Notes: a model not told the origin generated them from the letters alone. A stretch of 64,000 nt of DNA from Actinomycetes bacterium (GCA_021826315.1 JAKAZZ010000007.1:1-64000); one strand, 5' to 3'; numbered from the stretch's first letter, positions 49,901 to 61,378 are shown. Made by a program: numbers and translations.

Positions 49901-51994
49901 ATGGAAGACAAAAGCGTTGTTGCAGCACTTGGGCCAAGCAGGTTCCTAAATAGAGAGGTCTCTTGGATTCGCTTTGCGGAGAGGGTAGTTGAACTCGCCG
50001 CAGATGGTTCGATTCCACTTCTTGAACGGGTGAAGTTTCTGGCAATCTTTTCATCTGGACTAGACGAGTTCTTCCAAGTTCGTGTGGCCGGCCTCAAGGA
50101 CCGATTGGCCGCCAGCGTTAAATCGAAGAGCTCTGATGGCATGAGTACCAAGGAGCAGCTAAAGGCGATTCGAAATGAACTTGAGCCGCTGCTTGATAAG
50201 GTTGGAAAGATCTACAATCAGGATATTGTGGCGGGTTTGAAGGAGCATGGAGTTGAAGTTCTCTCCTTTGACGAACTCGATCTCAATGATAGACGCGAGC
50301 TTTCGGCGATCTTTGAAAAGCGTATATTCCCAGTATTGACCCCAATCGCATTGGATCCCGCTCATCCATTCCCCTACATCAGCAATCTTTCCCTTAGCCT
50401 CTTGGTGACGGTATCTGACCCAATATCGAAGGAGTCTCGAGTAGCTCGCGTTAAGGTACCCGCCATCTTGCCGAGGTTCGTACCCATTGGTGATGCTTAC
50501 AAATTCGTTACCTTGGAGTCAGTGATAGCGGCCCATCTCAATCGACTCTTTCCTGAGATGGAAATTGGGGATCATTACTCGTTTAGAGTCACTCGAAACG
50601 CCGACCTATCACTCGAAGAAGAAGAGGCAGATGACCTCCTTGAGTTAGTTGAAATCGAACTGCGACGTCGACGGTTTGGGCGTGCGGTTAGGGTTGAAGT
50701 CTCTCGTGGAACTCCAGCAACGGCGATCGACTTAATTTCTGAGGAGCTACGACTTCATAGAGATGATATTTATGAAGTAGATTTTCCTATCGACCTCTCC
50801 GGCCTCTGGCAAGTCCACTCGATTGGGATACCAGAGATTTCTGCGCCGAGCTTTACTCCCACTACACCTCAGGAATTCAGCGAAAGCAATACGGGGCGCA
50901 GAGCTGACATCTTTGAAGTTTTGCGAGGAAGAGATATTCTCCTTCATCATCCTTATACGTCATTTTCGAACACCGTTGAAGCCTTTATCGAGCAAGCGGC
51001 CTTAGATCCGAATGTGCTGGCTATCAAACAGACTCTCTATAGAACGTCGGGAGATTCGAGGATGATGGCGGCGCTTATCCGTGCCGCTGAAGCGGGAAAG
51101 CAAGTTGCAGTTCTGGTTGAACTAAAGGCTCGATTCGATGAGCTTGCGAATATCTCGTGGGCTAAGAGATTGGAAGAGGCAGGAGTTCACGTCGTATATG
51201 GATTGATGGGGTTGAAGACCCATATCAAGGCTGCACTAGTAATCCGAAATGAAGATGAGGGTGTGCGACTCTACTGTCACTTAGGTACGGGAAACTATAA
51301 CGCTAAGACTGCACGAAGTTACGAAGATCTTGGTCTCCTAAGTGCGGATAGCGATCTAAATCGCGACCTTGCTGAGGCCTTCAACCTCCTGACCGGCTTT
51401 TCCCGCCCCGGTGAATTTAGCAAGATAGTTTTAGCCCCGACGTTTCTGCGCAATCGAATCATGGAATTGATCGATGAGCAGGCCCAAATGGGAGAAGAGG
51501 GTCGTATAGTCATAAAGGTAAATAACCTTACCGACTCTCCGATAATCGATGCGCTTTATAATGCGTCGAACCACGGTGTTACGATCGATATTATCGCTCG
51601 CGGTATCTGTTGTCTTCGCCCAGGAGTTCCTGGACTTTCGGAGAATATACGGGTTAAGTCGATTGTTGGAAAGTTGCTCGAGCACTCGAGGATCTATGCC
51701 TTTGGGGGGACTCAAGAGACCAATCCATTCAAGGTGTACGTTGGATCGGCAGATCTCATGGAGAGAAATTTAGACCGACGAATTGAGGCCATCTTTCCGA
51801 TCAGCCAAGCTAGTGACATTGCGCAAGTAGAGGAGATTTTAAAGCTTTGCGAAGCAGATGACCATTATTCGTGGACGATGAATGCTTCTGGGTTTTATGA
51901 GCGGGATGAATCTACTCTAGGGATTTCGGTTCAGGATATTTTGATGGAGAAGGCTAACCTTGAATCAAGGAAGCCGGCTCCTTCGCTGATGTGA
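49901..51994 (+). CDS. ppk1: Polyphosphate kinase 1
   Basis: Membrane-associated enzyme that makes polyphosphate from ATP. 697 residues, normal length. It has the N-terminal helical domain (FLNREVSWIRFAERV), the head domain, and two phospholipase-D-like catalytic domains. The active-site regions LMGLKTHIKAALV (His about 442, the likely phosphorylated residue) and YCHLGTGNYNAKTARSYEDL (about 457-475) are present, as is YVGSADLMERNLDRRIEAIFPI near the C terminus. The CYTH gene follows after 6 bp, and ppx is convergent beyond it. It starts the polyphosphate gene neighbourhood. Confidence 0.96.
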   Translation: MEDKSVVAALGPSRFLNREVSWIRFAERVVELAADGSIPLLERVKFLAIFSSGLDEFFQVRVAGLKDRLAASVKSKSSDGMSTKEQLKAIRNELEPLLDKVGKIYNQDIVAGLKEHGVEVLSFDELDLNDRRELSAIFEKRIFPVLTPIALDPAHPFPYISNLSLSLLVTVSDPISKESRVARVKVPAILPRFVPIGDAYKFVTLESVIAAHLNRLFPEMEIGDHYSFRVTRNADLSLEEEEADDLLELVEIELRRRRFGRAVRVEVSRGTPATAIDLISEELRLHRDDIYEVDFPIDLSGLWQVHSIGIPEISAPSFTPTTPQEFSESNTGRRADIFEVLRGRDILLHHPYTSFSNTVEAFIEQAALDPNVLAIKQTLYRTSGDSRMMAALIRAAEAGKQVAVLVELKARFDELANISWAKRLEEAGVHVVYGLMGLKTHIKAALVIRNEDEGVRLYCHLGTGNYNAKTARSYEDLGLLSADSDLNRDLAEAFNLLTGFSRPGEFSKIVLAPTFLRNRIMELIDEQAQMGEEGRIVIKVNNLTDSPIIDALYNASNHGVTIDIIARGICCLRPGVPGLSENIRVKSIVGKLLEHSRIYAFGGTQETNPFKVYVGSADLMERNLDRRIEAIFPISQASDIAQVEEILKLCEADDHYSWTMNASGFYERDESTLGISVQDILMEKANLESRKPAPSLM

Positions 51995-52000
51995 GGCAAG

Positions 52001-52666
52001 ATGATTGAAGAAGAGGTAAAGCTAACTGCTGGGGTTGAATTTTCAGTAGTGAACTACGAGGAACTCGTAGATGGGGCGCAGATCGAAGAGGATAAAAATA
52101 TCGAAACCCTGACTACCTACTTTGATACAGCAGAATTTCTGATGACCAAAAGGAAGTCGTCACTTCGGTTCCGCTGCTATGTGGGAGACCTCGACGATAA
52201 AGTGCACCTTGGTGAAGATGTAAGTGGCACTTGGACCATAAAGGATGGGGGCGAAAGTGCGACCTCCGATGGCGTAGTCTCGGTAAAGCGCCATGAGATA
52301 AATGTCAAAGGTAAGTTCGGCGACTCGCTCGACGAGCTCTTTGGTCGTGCTGAGGTACGTCCCATTCCTCGCGAGACCCTCTCTCCAATTGCCCGAATGA
52401 TCTCCCGAAGGCATTCAACGACGATCTCACTGGCAGGCGAAAAGGTCGCTGTCGACGACGATGTAGCCGATATTTTGCGCATCGAGAATAATCAGGTTGT
52501 GCATACATTTAGAGAGATTGAGGTTGAGCTACTTAGCGATGAAGGTGGTCTCACCTTGCGCAATGCTCTAGTTTCGAAGCTTATCGAGCTGGGGGCACGC
52601 TACTCCGACTCACCCTCCAAGCTCCACCTCGCGCTCTCTCTTCTCTACCCCAACGAAGGAATCTAG
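52001..52666 (+). CDS. CYTH-domain triphosphatase-like protein
   Basis: 221 residues forming a CYTH (triphosphate tunnel) domain. The N-terminal ExExK motif is present as EEEVK (Glu3, Glu5, Lys7). Other tunnel residues fit: TTYFDTAEF, SSLRFRCYV, TWTIKDGG, FREIEVELL and SPSKLHLAL near the C terminus. CYTH proteins next to polyphosphate genes hydrolyse tripolyphosphate or bind polyphosphate. Many carry a C-terminal CHAD domain; this one does not. Six bases separate it from ppk1, so the two are co-transcribed. Confidence 0.88.
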   Translation: MIEEEVKLTAGVEFSVVNYEELVDGAQIEEDKNIETLTTYFDTAEFLMTKRKSSLRFRCYVGDLDDKVHLGEDVSGTWTIKDGGESATSDGVVSVKRHEINVKGKFGDSLDELFGRAEVRPIPRETLSPIARMISRRHSTTISLAGEKVAVDDDVADILRIENNQVVHTFREIEVELLSDEGGLTLRNALVSKLIELGARYSDSPSKLHLALSLLYPNEGI

Positions 52667-52684
52667 GGTTCTTTTTCCTTCGGG

Positions 52685-54277
52685 CTAATTTGTTATTAAA
52701 TGAACGTCGAGTTTGAAGACATCTTCAAAGAGCTGTCGCTTTCGACGGAGTCCATACTCCTCTAATTCAACAGCACTGCTGCTGTCGACAAAGAGAAGAA
52801 GTTGCTCGCGTTCGATCACCACTTTGACGGATTCTACAATTGTTCGATGAGAGCGATCGAGTGCGTCAGCAAGTCGAAGTAGTGCCGTTAACTTAAGCAC
52901 ACTGCTTGCTTGCGCCTTGTTCAGCTCCGCAAATGGAGGATAATCGTTCTTGGGTGTTCCCTTGCGGTGAAACCTGACGACTGAAAGAAGGCAGTTGCGT
53001 TCGTTTATGTCAAAACCAGGGAGTCGAGAGTTTTCAAGTAGATATGCGCTATGTCTGTCGTGACCTTCGACGGAGATGAACTCGCCGATGTCATGTGAGA
53101 GCCCCGCCAAATAGAGGATCTCTCGCTCTTTCTCACTAAGGCCATGGAGCTTTTTGGTCTGGTCGAATATCGATACTGCTAACTCAGCTACCTTCCGTGA
53201 GTGGCGCTCGTTCCACTTGTACCTTTCGGCGATGGCCGTTATTGACTCAACTTTGAGCGATGGATTGTCACCTTCAAATTCACTCTCGCTCACGAGGGAA
53301 AGTTCTTTGAGTATGATCCCTTCACGAAGTGCCCACTCACTCGCTAGGACTCTCTTGGGGTTTACTATGGCGAGCAATTCGGTCAAAACGATTGCGGCCG
53401 ATGGTAGGAGGTCAACCCTTTTATCGTCAACGCCTAAAAGTTTGGATCTACCTTTGAAGTCCGAGGAGATGATCATTTTGCAGGTCGTCCTGAGCTCGTC
53501 AATCGGAATCTCGCTCTGGTTTATAGATAGGTCATTCCAGCGCTTTTCATCGATTCTAAGAAGAGTCATACGAGCAATGTTTAGGAGCGATCCACTTGAG
53601 AGAATGAGTGTCGAGGGTTTGCTTTGTGAAATGGTATCGATCATCTCTTCGTCGAGATTTTGACGAATTGCTCTAGCGACCTCTTCTTTGTCAATCCCAG
53701 GTACGGTTCCAGGTGCCCGATACCTGCTAGTTAATTTTCCAACGCCAAGAGGGTAACTTGCGCAGTGGATTAGTTGACTCTGCTCCCCGACCATAATTTC
53801 CAATGAGCCACCGCCAAGATCCGCACCAACTACGGTGTCTCCCCCAAAGTCAACCCCTTGGCTTAGTGCCGTCCAAATAAGTTCTGCTTCGGTTCTACCA
53901 GCGATAACGCTTACTTTGATCCCAAGGCTCTCCTCTAGTTCGTCGACGACGACACCGGCGTTCCTTGCATCTCGAAATGCTGCGGTTGCGACTGCCTTCA
54001 TTGTCGTCGCCCCAACTGCCTTGGAGAGAGTTGTCATTCGGGCAACCACTTCGGCGATTCGTAGTCGAGTCTCATCTGAAAATCTCTTGGTGGCTGCGAC
54101 TTCGTCACCGAGGCGCATCATCTCTTTCTCTTTCAGAATTACCTCGAAGTTGTTGCGGCCGTGTCCTCTTGCTACTACCAAGTGGAAAGAGTTCGACCCC
54201 ATATCGAGCGCCGCCACGGTCACACCCTTGGGCGCCATATTTGCTAGCTCGCTATCTTTGAGGTAGTCAATCTCCAC
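52685..54277 (-). CDS. ppx: Exopolyphosphatase, Ppx/GppA family with HD-type C-terminal domain
   Basis: 530 residues. The Ppx/GppA actin-like domain (about 15-320) starts ALDMGSNSFHLVVARG and contains AVATAAFRDARN, VIAGRTEAELIW, VVGADLGGGSLEIMVG and LILSSGSLLNIARM. The C-terminal domain (about 345-500) is HD-like: LAGLSHDIGEF, EGHDRHSAYLLENS, FHRKG and LLRLADALDRSH. It degrades polyphosphate from the ends and may also cleave pppGpp. The GTG start has AAAGGAGAG upstream. It is convergent with the ppk1-CYTH pair (stop codons 18 bp apart), so synthesis and breakdown genes face each other. Confidence 0.92.
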   Translation of the reverse strand: MEIDYLKDSELANMAPKGVTVAALDMGSNSFHLVVARGHGRNNFEVILKEKEMMRLGDEVAATKRFSDETRLRIAEVVARMTTLSKAVGATTMKAVATAAFRDARNAGVVVDELEESLGIKVSVIAGRTEAELIWTALSQGVDFGGDTVVGADLGGGSLEIMVGEQSQLIHCASYPLGVGKLTSRYRAPGTVPGIDKEEVARAIRQNLDEEMIDTISQSKPSTLILSSGSLLNIARMTLLRIDEKRWNDLSINQSEIPIDELRTTCKMIISSDFKGRSKLLGVDDKRVDLLPSAAIVLTELLAIVNPKRVLASEWALREGIILKELSLVSESEFEGDNPSLKVESITAIAERYKWNERHSRKVAELAVSIFDQTKKLHGLSEKEREILYLAGLSHDIGEFISVEGHDRHSAYLLENSRLPGFDINERNCLLSVVRFHRKGTPKNDYPPFAELNKAQASSVLKLTALLRLADALDRSHRTIVESVKVVIEREQLLLFVDSSSAVELEEYGLRRKRQLFEDVFKLDVHLITN

Positions 54278-54891: not shown

Positions 54892-55986
54892 TTATCCTTG
54901 GGTATCTTCTTGGTCATCCAGCGTGACTGGTCCTTTCCCGAGGCCAAGCGAGACTAGGCCCCCAATGGGTATGGGGAGCCAAAAATTTATGAGTCGATAG
55001 CCGATGACGCCAAGGATCGCGATAGCTCGAGGCGAACCGAAGCCTACTAACGTTGAAGTCAGAACGCCTTCAATAACGCCTAATCCGCCAGGCGTTATCG
55101 GTATTGCTGCGAGTACATTAGCCAAACCATAGCTAACCAAAAGTGCGTCTGGATTTACGTAGTAGCCGAAGGCTGCCATAAATACCCATAGGGATGCCGC
55201 GTCAAGTATCCAGTTGAAGAATGCAAATATGACCGCACGTCGCAAAAGGTCGGGATTTGACTCAAGGTCTTTTATGCGAAGCGCAACACGTGCGAGTATT
55301 GGCATTAACTTTTCGACTCTAATAAATTTAATGTGCTCGCTTAGGCGAACGATTATACGAGCGATTCGGTCTTCTCCCCTGGTCAACGCGATTACGGTGA
55401 GGATGAAGAACGTAAAGACGAAGAGGCCAAGGCCTACGGCGATCGCATACGAAGCACTGAGTCCGTGGAGCGGAATCGATACGATTAGGGCTACCCAAAG
55501 AATGGCGTTTAAGACTACGGCCGAACCTATTCCCTGAGTTGCAATTGCGAATGCGGCGTCCGTAGTACGGGCACCTACATTAGTCATCAACCTTATTGAA
55601 AGACCGGTTCCTCCTGCAGTTCCAGCAGGAATAATGTGAGAAGTAGCCAACGCAGCTAGGTCGATTCGAAAGATCTTGCTAAAGCTAATTGCTCCCTTTG
55701 GGAGCATGGCCTCCGTCAACTTTGCATAGGCAACGAGAGCTGCAACTTCTAGCGCTATTCCTAGACCAATCCATGCGATATTTACCGTTGAAAGTACGTG
55801 GATATCTTTTCTGGCGCCAGCAATCTGTGGAAAGACTAGGTACTCAAGTACGAGTACGATTAGCACGCCCTTTGCGCCTCCAAATGCAAAGCGACGCATC
55901 GGACCCTTCTTTCGCCAAAGTTTTCGGCGCTCTTTCTTTTGCTCTTCGTGCTCTTCGATTATTGTAGCTCCGCCTTTGAACGGCAC
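54892..55986 (-). CDS. LPG-synthase-type membrane protein (flippase-like, AglD/UPF0104)
   Basis: 364 residues with a charged cytoplasmic N terminus (EEHEEQKKERRKLWRKKG) and about eight membrane segments, matching the lysylphosphatidylglycerol synthase transmembrane region without its catalytic soluble domain. Conserved marks: ATSHIIPAGTAGGTGLSIRLM, NVLAAIPITPGGLGVIEGVLT and GYRLINFWLPIPIGG. Such proteins are linked to lipid or glycolipid flipping. Neighbours of envelope type (NodB deacetylase, glycosyltransferase) support a role in glycolipid handling; that is inference. Confidence 0.85.
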   Translation of the reverse strand: MPFKGGATIIEEHEEQKKERRKLWRKKGPMRRFAFGGAKGVLIVLVLEYLVFPQIAGARKDIHVLSTVNIAWIGLGIALEVAALVAYAKLTEAMLPKGAISFSKIFRIDLAALATSHIIPAGTAGGTGLSIRLMTNVGARTTDAAFAIATQGIGSAVVLNAILWVALIVSIPLHGLSASYAIAVGLGLFVFTFFILTVIALTRGEDRIARIIVRLSEHIKFIRVEKLMPILARVALRIKDLESNPDLLRRAVIFAFFNWILDAASLWVFMAAFGYYVNPDALLVSYGLANVLAAIPITPGGLGVIEGVLTSTLVGFGSPRAIAILGVIGYRLINFWLPIPIGGLVSLGLGKGPVTLDDQEDTQG

Positions 55987-56090: not shown

Positions 56091-57176
56091 TTGGATCGTA
56101 AAGAGTTCATGAAGCGCGTTTTTCTAATTGACGCCATTGCCATAGCGACGATTCTGTCGATCTTCCTAGTGGTAGTCTTACACGGCTTTCTTTTGGATCT
56201 TTTGATCTCGACCATCTTTGCTATCGTTTTACATCCGATAGTCAGATTTATGGTCCGTCACAAAATTCGCCGATCCATCGCGGTTGTTGTGGTTGTCCTT
56301 GTGGGCCTTGCCGCCCTTACGGCGTTGGTTTACGTATTTACAAAACCCCTCTATTCAGCTGCGTTTACCTTTGCGCACCAGCTCCCAACCCTTGTGGCCC
56401 AAGCCCAAAGTGGAAAAGGGCAACTTGGTGCGCTCATTACGCGATTTCACATAGAGTCATTCGTTTCGTCAAATGTCTCCAAGATAACGAGTGCCGCTGG
56501 AAATCTGACTGGGACGCTCCTGTCTGCGACGAGAACATTTTTAACGGGACTTACCGGAGTAATCACCATAGCCCTACTTTCGGTATTCATTCTTCTCGAA
56601 GGGCCGAAGGTGGTTCAAAACACCCTTGGATTATTGCCCGTGGAAACTAGGGCACTTGTTCATCGAATCCTCGAACGGAGTGAGAAGGCAGTCGCCGGTT
56701 ACGTCTTCGGTAATCTCGCTACTTCAGTCATTGCAGGAGTCGTAGTTGGTGCTTCGCTCTCCATTCTGGGCGTTCCATTTGCGCTCCTACTAGCCCTTTG
56801 GGTTGCGATAGTAGACCTGCTTCCCCTTGTCGGTGGATTACTTGCTGGTGTTCCAACGGTATTTATAGCTTTTCTGCATTCGCCGATCGCTGGGGTAGTC
56901 ATGCTGGTTGTCTTCTTGACCTATCAGCAAATTGAGAATCATATCTTAAATCCCGTAGTCATGGCTCGAACGGTCAGCTTGAACCCTCTTTGGATCTTGA
57001 TCGCCGTATTGGTAGGAACTGATCTTTCAGGTTTCACAGGCGCACTTATAGGCATTCCCGTAGCTGCTATGATCCAAGTAACCTCCCAAGAACTCTGGCA
57101 CAAGTACGGCTCTTCGCGAACCATATCAAGCCAAAAAGAAGAGGATGCGCTCCCCGAGGATCCTAGCGACTTGTAA
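56091..57176 (+). CDS. AI-2E family transporter (PerM/YdiK type)
   Basis: 361-residue polytopic protein of the AI-2E transporter family. Hydrophobic pairs at about 12-35 and 40-85, a soluble loop at about 95-145, and further helices to about 335. Family marks: ILGVPFALLLALWVAIVDLLP, GGLLAGVPTVFIAFLHSP, YQQIENHILNPVVMARTVSLNP and GFTGALIGIPVAAMIQV. Substrate unknown; some members are Na+/H+ antiporters or export small molecules. TTG start with GAGGTGAG upstream. The 3' end overlaps the convergent NodB gene by 14 bases. Confidence 0.87.
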   Translation: MDRKEFMKRVFLIDAIAIATILSIFLVVVLHGFLLDLLISTIFAIVLHPIVRFMVRHKIRRSIAVVVVVLVGLAALTALVYVFTKPLYSAAFTFAHQLPTLVAQAQSGKGQLGALITRFHIESFVSSNVSKITSAAGNLTGTLLSATRTFLTGLTGVITIALLSVFILLEGPKVVQNTLGLLPVETRALVHRILERSEKAVAGYVFGNLATSVIAGVVVGASLSILGVPFALLLALWVAIVDLLPLVGGLLAGVPTVFIAFLHSPIAGVVMLVVFLTYQQIENHILNPVVMARTVSLNPLWILIAVLVGTDLSGFTGALIGIPVAAMIQVTSQELWHKYGSSRTISSQKEEDALPEDPSDL

Positions 57177-57867
57177 TTGGCCCGATCTCAATCGACTCGT
57201 CACGAAGGCGATCAATTATCAGGGGTAGTGCTCCGATCGTTGAGTTGATCGAGCCTGGCGCAGAGGTGCAGTCACTGTCGTGCAAAAGGATAGTTCCACC
57301 ACGGGGGTCGTAGCGAAAGACGTCATCTACTACAGTCTGTGCTGTAGCCACCGCTCTCCAGTCCCGCCCCCAATTTGTCCAGGTTATGACCTTAAGATCA
57401 TTCTTGTGGCACCCATAAATAGTTCCACCCGATATCACGCCGTAGGGAGGTCGATACAGTTCGATCTTCCGTTCGGTTGTCTCTTCTACGACCTCTTTGC
57501 CACGCCTGAGGTCAAAGGCGATGGTCTTGGCGCTACGAAACAGGTGATTTCGATGTTCATAACCGTGTAGGGCGATGGCGTGGCCCTCATCGGCAACCTC
57601 TTTGGTAAGAGATTTGTACTTTTCAACCATCTGTCCCAGCATGAAAAAGGTGGCTTTAGTGTTGCTATTCGCCAGGATCTCAAGGATCAAAGGAGTGTAA
57701 GAGGGGTCTGGGCCGTCGTCGAATGAGATTGCGGTGTAGCGTTGTCCATGGTTATAGCCGGTAATCGTTGGCAATATCTTCTTGGTGAGGGGGAAGAACC
57801 ATGATAGGGCACTTGCGCTATGACCAACTGTTGCGATCGATATTGCGCTCATGGCTATCTTGTTCAT
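57163..57867 (-). CDS. Polysaccharide deacetylase (NodB domain)
   Basis: 234 residues. A short N-terminal hydrophobic stretch (about 4-25) may be a signal anchor. The NodB domain is complete: motif 1 AISFDDGPDPSYTP (metal Asp), KATFFMLGQMVEKY, motif 2 HGYEHRNH (HxxxH metal ligands), motif 3 YRPPYGVISG and motif 5 TILLHDSD. So this should be an active metal-dependent deacetylase acting on GlcNAc-containing glycans outside the membrane. It follows by 28 bp a glycosyltransferase carrying what looks like a degenerate NodB domain; both are on the minus strand and probably one operon. Confidence 0.92.
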   Translation of the reverse strand: MNKIAMSAISIATVGHSASALSWFFPLTKKILPTITGYNHGQRYTAISFDDGPDPSYTPLILEILANSNTKATFFMLGQMVEKYKSLTKEVADEGHAIALHGYEHRNHLFRSAKTIAFDLRRGKEVVEETTERKIELYRPPYGVISGGTIYGCHKNDLKVITWTNWGRDWRAVATAQTVVDDVFRYDPRGGTILLHDSDCTSAPGSINSTIGALPLIIDRLRDESIEIGPITSR

Positions 57868-57895
57868 AGTACTTCTTGCCCTTTAAGCGATTGAT

Positions 57896-59671
57896 CTACT
57901 GTACGTGGGTGGCAAAGTCAGTAGGTGTGAGTTGCGAGAATGGTAAGATCGTGAAGCTTTGCTTGTTCAGCGCTGTCAGGACGTGCTTGATCTCGACTAA
58001 CGCCGCGGAAGAGGTGAGCTTCTCCGTGGGAATGAGGTACGTGCGTCCAGATACTGCCTTGAACAGAAGGGGATTTTCGAGTCCATACGCCTTTACTACA
58101 GGGCTGTGTGAGATAGATGCCCAAGCAAGGTCGACGCTAGAGAGGATGCTCTCTGGAGAGTAGATCAGATTCGTCTCACCCGTTATCCTGCTTAGAATCT
58201 TCTCTGCTTTGGTGGCTCCCTCAATAGGGGCGAGAAGGCGAATACCTGAATTTATCGGCCAACCTCCATTTACGACCGTAACGCCCTTTGCTACCAAGTT
58301 TCGCACTTGGTCAGGATATTCAAGGGCTAAAGGTCCGCTCACTACTGCGCCAATCCCGGTGGTAGCTAACATCCGAATCACTTGTGGATTAGAGATCGTC
58401 GCACTTGTCATAGGTACTTCGAGATACGCATATGGTGTGGCGACTGCTGCACTTGCTATGTTGACCTCGTTTGTCGCTGCGTTTGTCGCTACATTTGCAA
58501 GGGTGACGAGCGCAATTGAACCAAAGGCAACTTTGGCGGATGTAACGAATGGACGAGGTTGGCTTGATCGTTGTCGCCTCGGGATTTCAGTTCCGGTAAA
58601 TAGGTTGGAAATCACACGCGCTGGATCGTCGACAAAGACTTGAGAAGCACGCCTTGTCGTAAGTTCAGGGTTGCGTGCTAGCTCGTGGATCGTCTCGATC
58701 AGTTCGTTTCGATTCTTTGCCCAGAGTGAGACTCCGGCAGCTTCCATCTCAATGACGTTCCGCAACCCGTGGCCCTTTATTGGGTTGTAGCTAATAACTG
58801 GAACTCCGGCTGCGAATGCCTCATTAGCAGTCAATCCGCCAGCGTTTTGTATTACCACGTCGCAGGCTGCCATAAGCTCTGGCATGCGTTCGGTCCATCC
58901 GACTACTTTTCCTACATTGAGCTTGGTCAAATCATCGAAGAGAGCCTTATTTTTACCGCAGATAACGACTGGGAAGATATCGGGTGCATCGGCAAGCGAA
59001 GTTACGGTGTCTTTGAGGTCGCCGACTCCCCAACTTCCCGCAACGATAAGTGCTGCAGCTTGGTCGGTTGGAATCTCAAATTCTTCACGAATCTGTTTTG
59101 CCAAAGATTTATCGATGTTCTTGAATCGAGAAGATACGGCCGGTCCACTCACCGATGGAGTCTTGTCTACGAGCCGCTCGACCTGCCTCACACTGATGTG
59201 GTGAACGGCTAGATACTCGTCGATTCCTTCGTCAACCCACATGGTGTGGACTGAGAAGTCGGTAAGAAATGTATAAGCCGGCACCTTCATTGGTCGTACT
59301 AGAGAGCGACGTGCTCGTCCGAGAACCAACGACGCGAAGGGGTAGGTGGTGATAACTAGATCAGCGTCGAGCTCTTTGATCCACTTGCGAATTCGCGGGA
59401 AGAAGATCTTGTAGAAGATGGTTACGATCGGCGGCTTGATGGCTTTGAATGATGCAAAGATGCGAAATAGAGCCTCGTAACTCCACTGCGCGTGGTCGAG
59501 CTGGAGTTCGTAAGTCTTTTCGAGGAATCGTCCGATCCTAGGCGCCGCATCAAGGAAGTCGCGAATTTCAACTTCGAAACCGTGGCTTTGAAGGCTTTGT
59601 GCGATCTCTTTAGCTGCGCCATCGTGTCCGGCGCCCATGCGAGCGGAGATGATCAGCACTCGTTTCGGCAT
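57896..59671 (-). CDS. MGDG-synthase-like glycosyltransferase fused to a degenerate NodB domain
   Basis: 591 residues in three parts. Residues 1 to about 360 are a GT28-type enzyme like MGDG synthase/UgtP/MurG: VLIISARMGAGHDGAAKEIA, YTFLTDFSVHTMWVDEGID, GWTERMPELMAACDVVIQNAG and GGLTANEAFAAGVPVISYNPI. About 375-398 is hydrophobic (VAFGSIALVTLANVATNAAT), a probable membrane anchor. From about 415 to 585 the chain follows the NodB fold: NPQVIRMLATTGIGAVVSG, YPDQVRNLVAKGVTVVNGG, IYSPES in the RPPYG place and ALVEIKHVLTALNKQSFTIL. The metal Asp-Asp and HxxxH motifs are absent, so this part should be inactive. It directly precedes the intact NodB gene. Confidence 0.82.
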   Translation of the reverse strand: MPKRVLIISARMGAGHDGAAKEIAQSLQSHGFEVEIRDFLDAAPRIGRFLEKTYELQLDHAQWSYEALFRIFASFKAIKPPIVTIFYKIFFPRIRKWIKELDADLVITTYPFASLVLGRARRSLVRPMKVPAYTFLTDFSVHTMWVDEGIDEYLAVHHISVRQVERLVDKTPSVSGPAVSSRFKNIDKSLAKQIREEFEIPTDQAAALIVAGSWGVGDLKDTVTSLADAPDIFPVVICGKNKALFDDLTKLNVGKVVGWTERMPELMAACDVVIQNAGGLTANEAFAAGVPVISYNPIKGHGLRNVIEMEAAGVSLWAKNRNELIETIHELARNPELTTRRASQVFVDDPARVISNLFTGTEIPRRQRSSQPRPFVTSAKVAFGSIALVTLANVATNAATNEVNIASAAVATPYAYLEVPMTSATISNPQVIRMLATTGIGAVVSGPLALEYPDQVRNLVAKGVTVVNGGWPINSGIRLLAPIEGATKAEKILSRITGETNLIYSPESILSSVDLAWASISHSPVVKAYGLENPLLFKAVSGRTYLIPTEKLTSSAALVEIKHVLTALNKQSFTILPFSQLTPTDFATHVQ

Positions 59672-59700: not shown

Positions 59701-60570
59701 ATGGTCTACATACTTGCAATCGCATCAGCTATATCGTTTTCACTCGCTGCTATATTCCAAAAGCGGCAAGTTAGAGGTATCTCGACCGACGCGAACTTGA
59801 AGGTCACACTATTATGGCAACTCATCAAAAACCCATATTGGATTCTAGGCGTCCTTTTCGATATCTTTGCGTTTGTGGGTCAGTTCCTGGCCCTCAAGGA
59901 CGGTTCAATATTGGTCGTCTCTCCAATTTTGGCGTTTGGACTTAGTATTACCATCTTTGCCGACGCTCTCTTTGAGCGGAAGCGGCCTTCGTGGTCTATG
60001 GTTGGCTTAACCCTAGTTGCAGGCCTTTTGCTCGCAGTCTTTCTTTCGACGACGACTACAAATGCGAGCAAATTCGTTCCAAACTTCACCCTCGGAGTTG
60101 TAATCTCACTTGTGGTAACTGTGATCTTTGTCACAGCAAGGTTTGCTCCCTTTCGCCATGCAAAGTGGTGGATCGACTTTATCTTGCCGATATTCACTGG
60201 GGTTACACACGGAATTGCCATCTTCGTGACTAAAGCGACTGCCTCACTGGTGACCACATCGGGGTTTGGCGCGCTCTTTACACACTGGCCGGGTTACGTT
60301 CTAATTTTGATCGGTGCCATCGACCTAATTATGACCCAAAGTGTCTTGCAATTAGTGGAGCTAAGTGGAGTTCTTCCGGTCGTCAACTTGCTGGAGCCCA
60401 CCGTTGCAATGGCCTTGGGGGTATTCTTCTTGAAAGACCATATCCACTCTTCGATCGGTACTTTTACAGTTGCGTTGCTTCTAGTTGCCCTCGGAGGCGT
60501 AACATTTGCAATATCAGTTCTATCGTCACGATTGGTGACCGAGGGAGACGACAGTAGTGACCGCCATTAA
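59701..60570 (+). CDS. DMT/EamA-like transporter
   Basis: 289 residues, almost wholly hydrophobic, with about nine to ten membrane helices, resembling the drug/metabolite transporter superfamily (EamA- or NIPA-like). Helix landmarks: AIASAISFSLAAIFQKRQV, LKDGSILVVSPILAFGLSITI, SVLQLVELSGVLPVVNLLEP and VALGVFFL-like ALGVFFLKDH. The substrate is unknown. It starts 29 bp from the divergent glycosyltransferase gene and overlaps the PPK2 start by 14 bases, so it is translationally coupled to PPK2. Confidence 0.8.
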   Translation: MVYILAIASAISFSLAAIFQKRQVRGISTDANLKVTLLWQLIKNPYWILGVLFDIFAFVGQFLALKDGSILVVSPILAFGLSITIFADALFERKRPSWSMVGLTLVAGLLLAVFLSTTTTNASKFVPNFTLGVVISLVVTVIFVTARFAPFRHAKWWIDFILPIFTGVTHGIAIFVTKATASLVTTSGFGALFTHWPGYVLILIGAIDLIMTQSVLQLVELSGVLPVVNLLEPTVAMALGVFFLKDHIHSSIGTFTVALLLVALGGVTFAISVLSSRLVTEGDDSSDRH

Positions 60571-61378
60571 GCATTCAATCTTTAGAGCATCGCAAGCGCT
60601 CCCACACTTGGCACAGGCTACGCATCGATCATTCTTTGGTTGTGATGATATCGAAAAAGAGGTAGCCAAAAGTGAGATGGATACTTTGCGCGAGACACTC
60701 GAAGGGCTTCAAGGGCGCCTTTGGGCCGAGAAGAAGAGCGGACTGCTCTTAGTTCTACAGGGGCTAGATACAGCCGGTAAAGATGGAACAGTACGAAGGG
60801 TCTTCAGCGGCTTCAACCCACAAGGCGTACAGGTCTATGACTTCAAAGTTCCAAGTGAAGTTGAGTTGGCTCACGACTTCTTATGGAGGGTTCATATGGC
60901 CGTTCCGAGACGTGGTGAAATTGCTCTATTCAACCGCTCGCACTATGAGGACTTGTTGGTCCCGGTGGTGAACAAGGCGATAAGCGAAGCCAAATTTGCC
61001 GAGCGAGTCCGAAGCGTCAATGACTTTGAAGCGCATCTCGCGAGAAATGGCTTCCACGTAGTCAAGATCTTCATCAACATCTCGAAAGCGGAGCAAAAGG
61101 TGCGCCTCCAGGAACGCATCGACGATCCGACGAAGAATTGGAAGTTTGATGGATCGGATCTTGTAACCCGTACTCACTTCGAAGAGTACGTGCGCCAGTA
61201 TGCTCGTGTCATCGAATTGACCGACCACGAACACGCTCCATGGTACGTGGTGCCCGGAGATCAAAAGTGGTTTAGGGATCGCGCGGTACTTCAGATCGTT
61301 GCGCATCACCTAAGAAGTCTCGACCCTAAGTTTCCGCCGCCGCCAAAGCCAATTGAAGGCGTAATTATCCCGGATTAA
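60557..61378 (+). CDS. Polyphosphate kinase 2 family (PPK2)
   Basis: 273 residues, the size of a one-domain PPK2, which transfers phosphate between polyphosphate and nucleotides (AMP, ADP or both). Motifs: Walker A-like LQGLDTAGKDGTVRRVF (about 70-86), DFLWRVHMAVPRRGEIALFNRSHYEDLL (given as family lid/Walker B region, split here: VHMAVPRRGEIALF and NRSHYEDLL), RDRAV and WYVVPGDQKWFRD. The pattern is nearest to class III (AMP/ADP-phosphorylating). The GTG start lies inside the DMT gene with GAGGGAG upstream. It complements ppk1 and ppx a few kilobases away. Confidence 0.92.
   Translation: MTAIKHSIFRASQALPHLAQATHRSFFGCDDIEKEVAKSEMDTLRETLEGLQGRLWAEKKSGLLLVLQGLDTAGKDGTVRRVFSGFNPQGVQVYDFKVPSEVELAHDFLWRVHMAVPRRGEIALFNRSHYEDLLVPVVNKAISEAKFAERVRSVNDFEAHLARNGFHVVKIFINISKAEQKVRLQERIDDPTKNWKFDGSDLVTRTHFEEYVRQYARVIELTDHEHAPWYVVPGDQKWFRDRAVLQIVAHHLRSLDPKFPPPPKPIEGVIIPD

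Follow-up and report, generated by a model that had tools for sequence, protein, structure and literature searches.

A glycosyltransferase with a degenerate CE4/NodB-derived domain encoded beside an intact NodB deacetylase in Acidimicrobiia

The window, a stretch of 64,000 nucleotides from an Actinomycetes bacterium (GCA_021826315.1, JAKAZZ010000007.1:1-64000), raises the question of why a glycosyltransferase should carry, behind a membrane segment, what appears to be an inactive relative of the deacetylase encoded next to it. By its named relatives, the window was placed in Acidimicrobiia, in the same genus as Acidithrix ferrooxidans, of which contig NZ_JXYS01000030.1 encodes a protein 67% identical to the fused protein. 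Re-checking of the ORFs placed the MGDG-synthase-like glycosyltransferase at 57896-59671 (minus strand, 591 aa) and the NodB deacetylase at 57163-57867 (minus strand, 234 aa), separated by a gap of 28 bp; the coordinates, lengths and gap given in the initial annotation were all exact. Here, CD denotes the C-terminal CE4/NodB-derived domain of the glycosyltransferase (GT), and GT-CD the whole fused protein.

The glycosyltransferase region (residues 1-345; 58637..59671, minus strand) is predicted to be cytoplasmic and is of the MGDG synthase/UgtP type (GT28-like). Pfam matches were obtained to MGDG_synth (E 7.1e-15; 55.9 bits, cut-off 25), Glycos_transf_1 (E 4.6e-10) and Glyco_tran_28_C (27 bits, cut-off 22), with residues 3-337 matching the UgtP-type PRK13609 at E 8.2e-45. 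A search of the genome found no second match to the GT protein. The neighbouring gene (57163..57867, minus strand) was identified as an intact CE4/NodB deacetylase with an N-terminal hydrophobic segment, as had been claimed for it; Pfam assigned it to Polysacc_deac_1 at E 3e-29, and the CE4 catalytic motifs were present in 33 of 33 homologues. It is the sole PF01522 match in the genome, the assembly of which is approximately 90% complete.

CD (residues 402-591, with a CE4-like core at ~412-582; 57899..58468, minus strand) is predicted to be extracytoplasmic. The window CD alone gave no match to Pfam or NCBIfam in single-sequence searches, so profiles at the level of the family were needed. With these, the NodB reading of residues ~412-582, originally made by eye, proved to be correct, as the family profiles match CE4. 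Among 58 CD members, the best Pfam match was Polysacc_deac_1 at E 0.001. In hhalign, the CD family (35 sequences) and the neighbouring NodB family (33 sequences) aligned over their full length at E 1.2e-5, whereas the best of 50 controls with shuffled columns reached 0.03 and the reversed control 0.63 (both with the 35-member alignment); with 58 CDs, the value against the NodB family improved to between 1.6e-8 and 3.3e-9 (probability ~96%). When the profile of the 58 CDs was searched against the PDB, the first 12 matches were all CE4 enzymes, the best of them (E 1.3e-4) covering most of CD. Across 3,665 ORFs of 36 neighbourhoods, all matches of the CD profile other than GT-CD itself (14/14) were the NodB genes next door to GT-CD, and in the order-wide search the profile also reached NodB genes immediately adjoining GT-CD (those of G014, G907 and G830 among them).

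Outside the class, the CD search of the phylum gave weak matches that fell without exception on NodB domains or on the domain fused in L083. This protein, from genome G471, has the same three-part build as the window GT-CD. Its fused domain scored 27 bits with the profile of the neighbouring NodB and matched Polysacc_deac_1 at E 0.011 (16 bits, below the curated cut-off, positions 6-122 of 124), while L123, a relative of L083, reached 32.8 bits with the NodB profile. By these profile scores, L083 is a bridge between CD and CE4 from outside the class. Together, the profile comparisons show that residues 402-591 are CE4/NodB-derived.

Structure prediction was consistent with this ancestry. An AlphaFold model of CD from six CD rows only had a pLDDT of 45 and no significant fold match; the order of helices and strands over its first 120 residues was CE4-like, but the model was set aside as evidence given its low pLDDT and the lack of a usable fold match. 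Addition of four NodB rows raised the pLDDT to 82 (pTM 0.81) and yielded matches to CE4 structures (Foldseek 1e-8, Z 15.7), with BA3943 among the best, a result that serves as a check of compatibility rather than as independent proof, due to NodB rows having been supplied. The fold predicted for the C-terminal part, with NodB rows in the alignment of the model, is thus that of CE4, in line with the initial annotation. The hhalign comparison, the PDB search and the search of neighbourhood ORFs are lines of evidence for ancestry, at the level of sequence, that are independent of this NodB input.

The initial annotation had also described CD as lacking the metal-binding Asp-Asp motif, HxxxH and RPPYG. 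This loss was found to be both real and general. The MT1, MT3 and MT5 patterns were identified in 0/65 CDs compared to 33/33 neighbouring NodBs, the loss including the MT3 arginine and the MT5 histidine; HxxxH was seen in the MT2 region of one of the 65 CDs. None of the 65 retains the metal-site motifs, and judged by its motifs CD does not qualify as a CE4 deacetylase.

The former active site was nonetheless found to hold the five most conserved residues of CD, namely N468, G469, G470, P506 and D514 (each in 57 or 58 of 58 members). NGG (residues 468-470; 58262..58270, minus strand) takes the place of CE4 motif 2 (HxxxH), with N in 57/58, G in 58/58 and G in 58/58, and the segment from P506 to D514 (58130..58156, minus strand; P in 57/58, D in 57/58) corresponds to CE4 motif 3 (RPPYG) and the following loop. 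CD has only one near-invariant acidic residue, and a histidine at 522 is kept in 42/58. For CD, dN/dS was 0.075 and 0.118, and the active NodB gave 0.118 and 0.090, these values coming from the only two pairs, both of G004, that yielded ratios for all three parts; comparisons of the window with its nearest relatives were unusable as synonymous sites were saturated. CD is therefore as constrained as the active NodB in these pairs. The invariance of NGG, P and D at the former motifs, together with the low dN/dS, indicates a repurposed site and not decay, and a decaying CD was rejected on these grounds. The invariant residues suggest a rebuilt pocket.

GT and CD are joined by a single predicted membrane segment (residues ~381-399; 58475..58531, minus strand), recognized as a hydropathy peak with a charge bias and preceded by the basic stretch RRQRSSQPRPF..K (N-in, C-out). 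An Arg-rich stretch precedes the single hydrophobic segment in nearly all members, and by a crude count the flank before the segment is more positive than the flank after it at 28 of 36 loci. This arrangement predicts that GT lies inside the cell and CD outside. The N-terminal hydrophobic segment of NodB is weak in the window (peak 1.27) and stronger in other members, and it is likely from these features that CD and NodB are both extracytoplasmic.

The fusion through a membrane segment, as originally described, was found to be conserved across the class and beyond. GT-CD was present in nearly all sampled members of the family of the window, and CD in 50 of 298 genomes sampled across the order (about a dozen of these matches being weak, at ≤31 bits) and in 29 of 345 sampled across the class, the weakest of which, in G064, is a NodB. 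The fusion was also identified beyond the class, in G471 and G559, both genomes of a single other family. Carriers are mostly uncultured actinobacteria, and the domain is maintained across this class and occurs in a second one; a single scan of genome contigs for GT-CD yielded matches in close relatives only. An intact NodB fused to the same type of GT was not seen among the homologues examined. Several candidates for further fusions were rejected. The weak out-of-class matches L081, L082 and L084-L086 are NodB proteins, of which L082, L084 and L085 were scanned against Pfam and found to be without such a GT, and in a 1,053-aa open frame of L037 Pfam finds the GT alone. Separately, one frame in L044 (1381-4911) joins an N-terminal MMPL transporter to an MGDG-synthase-type GT (residues ~835-1143), another possible fusion of a GT with a membrane protein.

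The pairing of GT-CD with an intact NodB, also noted initially for the window, extends across the class and beyond: NodB directly follows GT-CD at 34 of 36 loci and in five of six further genomes. An adjoining NodB was absent, in the sequence at hand, for L149 and for two second copies on G116:C123 (L111, 5155-5685) and G150:C69 (L113, 8632-9183), both genomes of which also have a paired copy. These unpaired copies suggest that CD may work without NodB. At the Acidithrix ferrooxidans locus (L034:6750-8398), approximately 1.6 kb of extra sequence was observed between GT-CD and NodB.

After NodB, the neighbour found most consistently is a candidate lipid flippase of the DMT type (59701..60570, plus strand), an EamA/NIPA-like membrane protein with ~9 hydrophobic segments. 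Its gene adjoins at 31 of 36 loci; it is divergent in the family of the window, and immediately 3' of NodB on the same strand at nine loci of distant families. Homologues gave weak EamA/NIPA matches, with one NIPA match above cut-off. A gene for an LPG_synthase_TM protein (PF03706, MprF flippase-like, E 2.2e-27; 54892..55986, minus strand) lies on the same strand as GT, beyond an AI-2E family transporter gene (56091-57176) that is convergent with NodB and overlaps its end by 14 bp. PF03706 homologues were found within ~4 kb downstream at 14/36 loci, and at 13 of these 14 the convergent AI-2E gene intervenes (in place in 13/36 loci overall). They were limited to the family of the window and a few relatives in the order, none being seen nearby in distant families among the 36 loci. 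The window also contains a polyphosphate gene set (49901-54277 and 60557-61378) with Ppx/GppA and PPK2 identified by Pfam and PPK1-like and CYTH-like ORFs named by eye; in several family members, homologues of PPX and PPK1 are found on the downstream side of the GT-NodB-flippase block.

As the pairing has been kept across the whole class, the inactive CD probably serves its own function. On balance, we lean towards a module that makes an amino-glycolipid, in which the CD of the synthase holds the product and/or docks NodB and so couples synthesis to deacetylation. The cytoplasmic GT would add an N-acetyl-hexose to a diacylglycerol-type lipid, which would be moved to the outer leaflet by a flippase, either the DMT-type protein or, in the family of the window, the PF03706 protein. 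There the membrane-anchored NodB product would deacetylate it, while the outer CD, tethered to GT by one span, would hold the flipped glycolipid and/or dock the active NodB, coupling the two steps across the membrane. Binding of a glycan or positioning of the deacetylase, the roles first proposed for CD, would fit the invariant residues, the topology predicted for GT-CD and the way the genes are ordered. An argument against an amino-glycolipid product is that if the donor of GT is UDP-glucose, there would be no acetyl group to remove.

The pairing of genes at 34 of 36 loci and the homology of CD to the neighbouring NodB would also be accounted for if CD were a scaffold independent of substrate and without a pocket function, which recruits NodB (or the flippase) by protein contact and possibly arose by NodB duplication and fusion. 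For the fused domain of L083, the profile of the neighbouring NodB gives a higher score than Pfam CE4 (27 and 16 bits), as expected of a NodB copy, though this is not proof. We consider a pure scaffold unlikely, given that conservation peaks at motifs 2 and 3 of the former active site and not on an arbitrary surface, and that some GT-CD copies have no adjoining NodB. Alternatively, CD might be an enzyme that works without metal and whose active site has moved, to which the near-invariant N, GG, P and D would then belong; metal-independent NodB-fold enzymes without the MT1 aspartates exist (PMC10967932). The PuuE allantoinases have a NodB fold and no metal site. This is very improbable for CD, in which MT1, MT3 and MT5 are gone, with the MT3 arginine and MT5 histidine among the losses, and in which one acidic residue is near-invariant and His 522 is only partly kept.

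It is also doubtful, to a degree between these two, that the substrate of the pair is not a glycolipid but, for example, peptidoglycan or a cell-wall glycan, with GT performing ordinary glycolipid synthesis and linked by chance. The closest solved relatives of NodB do include peptidoglycan GlcNAc deacetylases, and NodB is the sole PF01522 match in the genome, but a chance link is difficult to reconcile with class-wide pairing with an MGDG-synthase-type GT that is itself fused to a NodB relative, and with conserved neighbours that are membrane proteins. Within the amino-glycolipid reading, a more speculative and rather unlikely elaboration is that the outer CD acts as a product sensor, where binding of the flipped N-acetylglycolipid (or its deacetylated form) would regulate the inner GT and hand the lipid to docked NodB, making GT-CD a feedback-coupled transmembrane synthase.

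CD is hardly recognized by Pfam despite its conservation across the class and its reach into a second one. It is a clear example, and an old one, of a former enzyme that became a partner, being joined to the probable maker of the substrate and encoded beside its active relative. Aminoglycolipids are predicted in Acidimicrobiia, and if the proposed coupling is true, it would show how an inside synthase and an outside deacetylase stay together.

Literature searches found nothing on Acidimicrobiales with aminoglycolipid and, by title, nothing on a GT fused to a polysaccharide deacetylase domain; no description of a three-part synthase (GT, membrane segment, CE4 pseudoenzyme) was found in the open-access literature searched. 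Related systems are known for its parts. UgtP, the processive diacylglycerol glucosyltransferase (PRK13609), matches the GT half of the window protein with a score of 153 against a cut-off of 500, and differs in that the window protein adds a membrane segment and a CE4-derived domain. The CE4 pseudoenzymes BA3943 (PDB 7bkf, 6hpa, 6hm9) and BA0150 (4M1B) have, like CD, a NodB fold with an impaired catalytic site, and the CD model with NodB rows in its alignment superposed on BA3943 (7bkf) with Z 15.7 and rmsd 3.7 over 176 residues. Unlike CD, they are not described as fused to a GT. Activity of BA3943 is restorable by mutation according to the title of 6hm9, while CD is entirely without MT1, MT3 and MT5 and has its own near-invariant NGG, P and D.

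The gene set of the window resembles the hexSDF and gpgSDF aminoglycolipid operons. In Clostridioides difficile, the GT and the deacetylase of hexSDF, encoded next to a flippase-like gene, produce an aminohexosyl lipid, with the acetylated lipid as an intermediate; HexS is annotated as an MGDG synthase and HexF as MprF-like (PMC10128005, PMC11898633). The window shares with it an MGDG-synthase-type GT that adjoins a polysaccharide deacetylase, and the PF03706 gene beyond the AI-2E gene is a candidate counterpart of the MprF-like flippase gene of that cluster. HexSDF removes the acetyl group from an N-acetylhexosyl lipid, and the same logic is proposed for the window, where the lipid is inferred. 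No CE4 domain is mentioned for HexS in the available portions of these sources, unlike the window GT with its membrane-spanning CE4 pseudoenzyme, and the most constant third neighbour of the window module differs from that of hexSDF as there described, being the DMT-type protein. The gpgSDF operon of Pseudomonas aeruginosa likewise combines a GT, a deacetylase and a UPF0104 flippase to make an amino-sugar lipid via an acetylated intermediate (PMC12713373). GpgS is of the GT4 type (cd03814) and GpgD is a COG3233 deacetylase, both without predicted membrane segments, unlike the window pair, and no pseudoenzyme domain like that of GT-CD is mentioned (PMC12713373). The site of action of HexD and GpgD is unsettled even in their own systems. 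Of the new arrangement claimed in the initial annotation, CE4 pseudoenzymes and GT-deacetylase glycolipid operons are thus each already known, while their combination in one membrane-spanning synthase is new.
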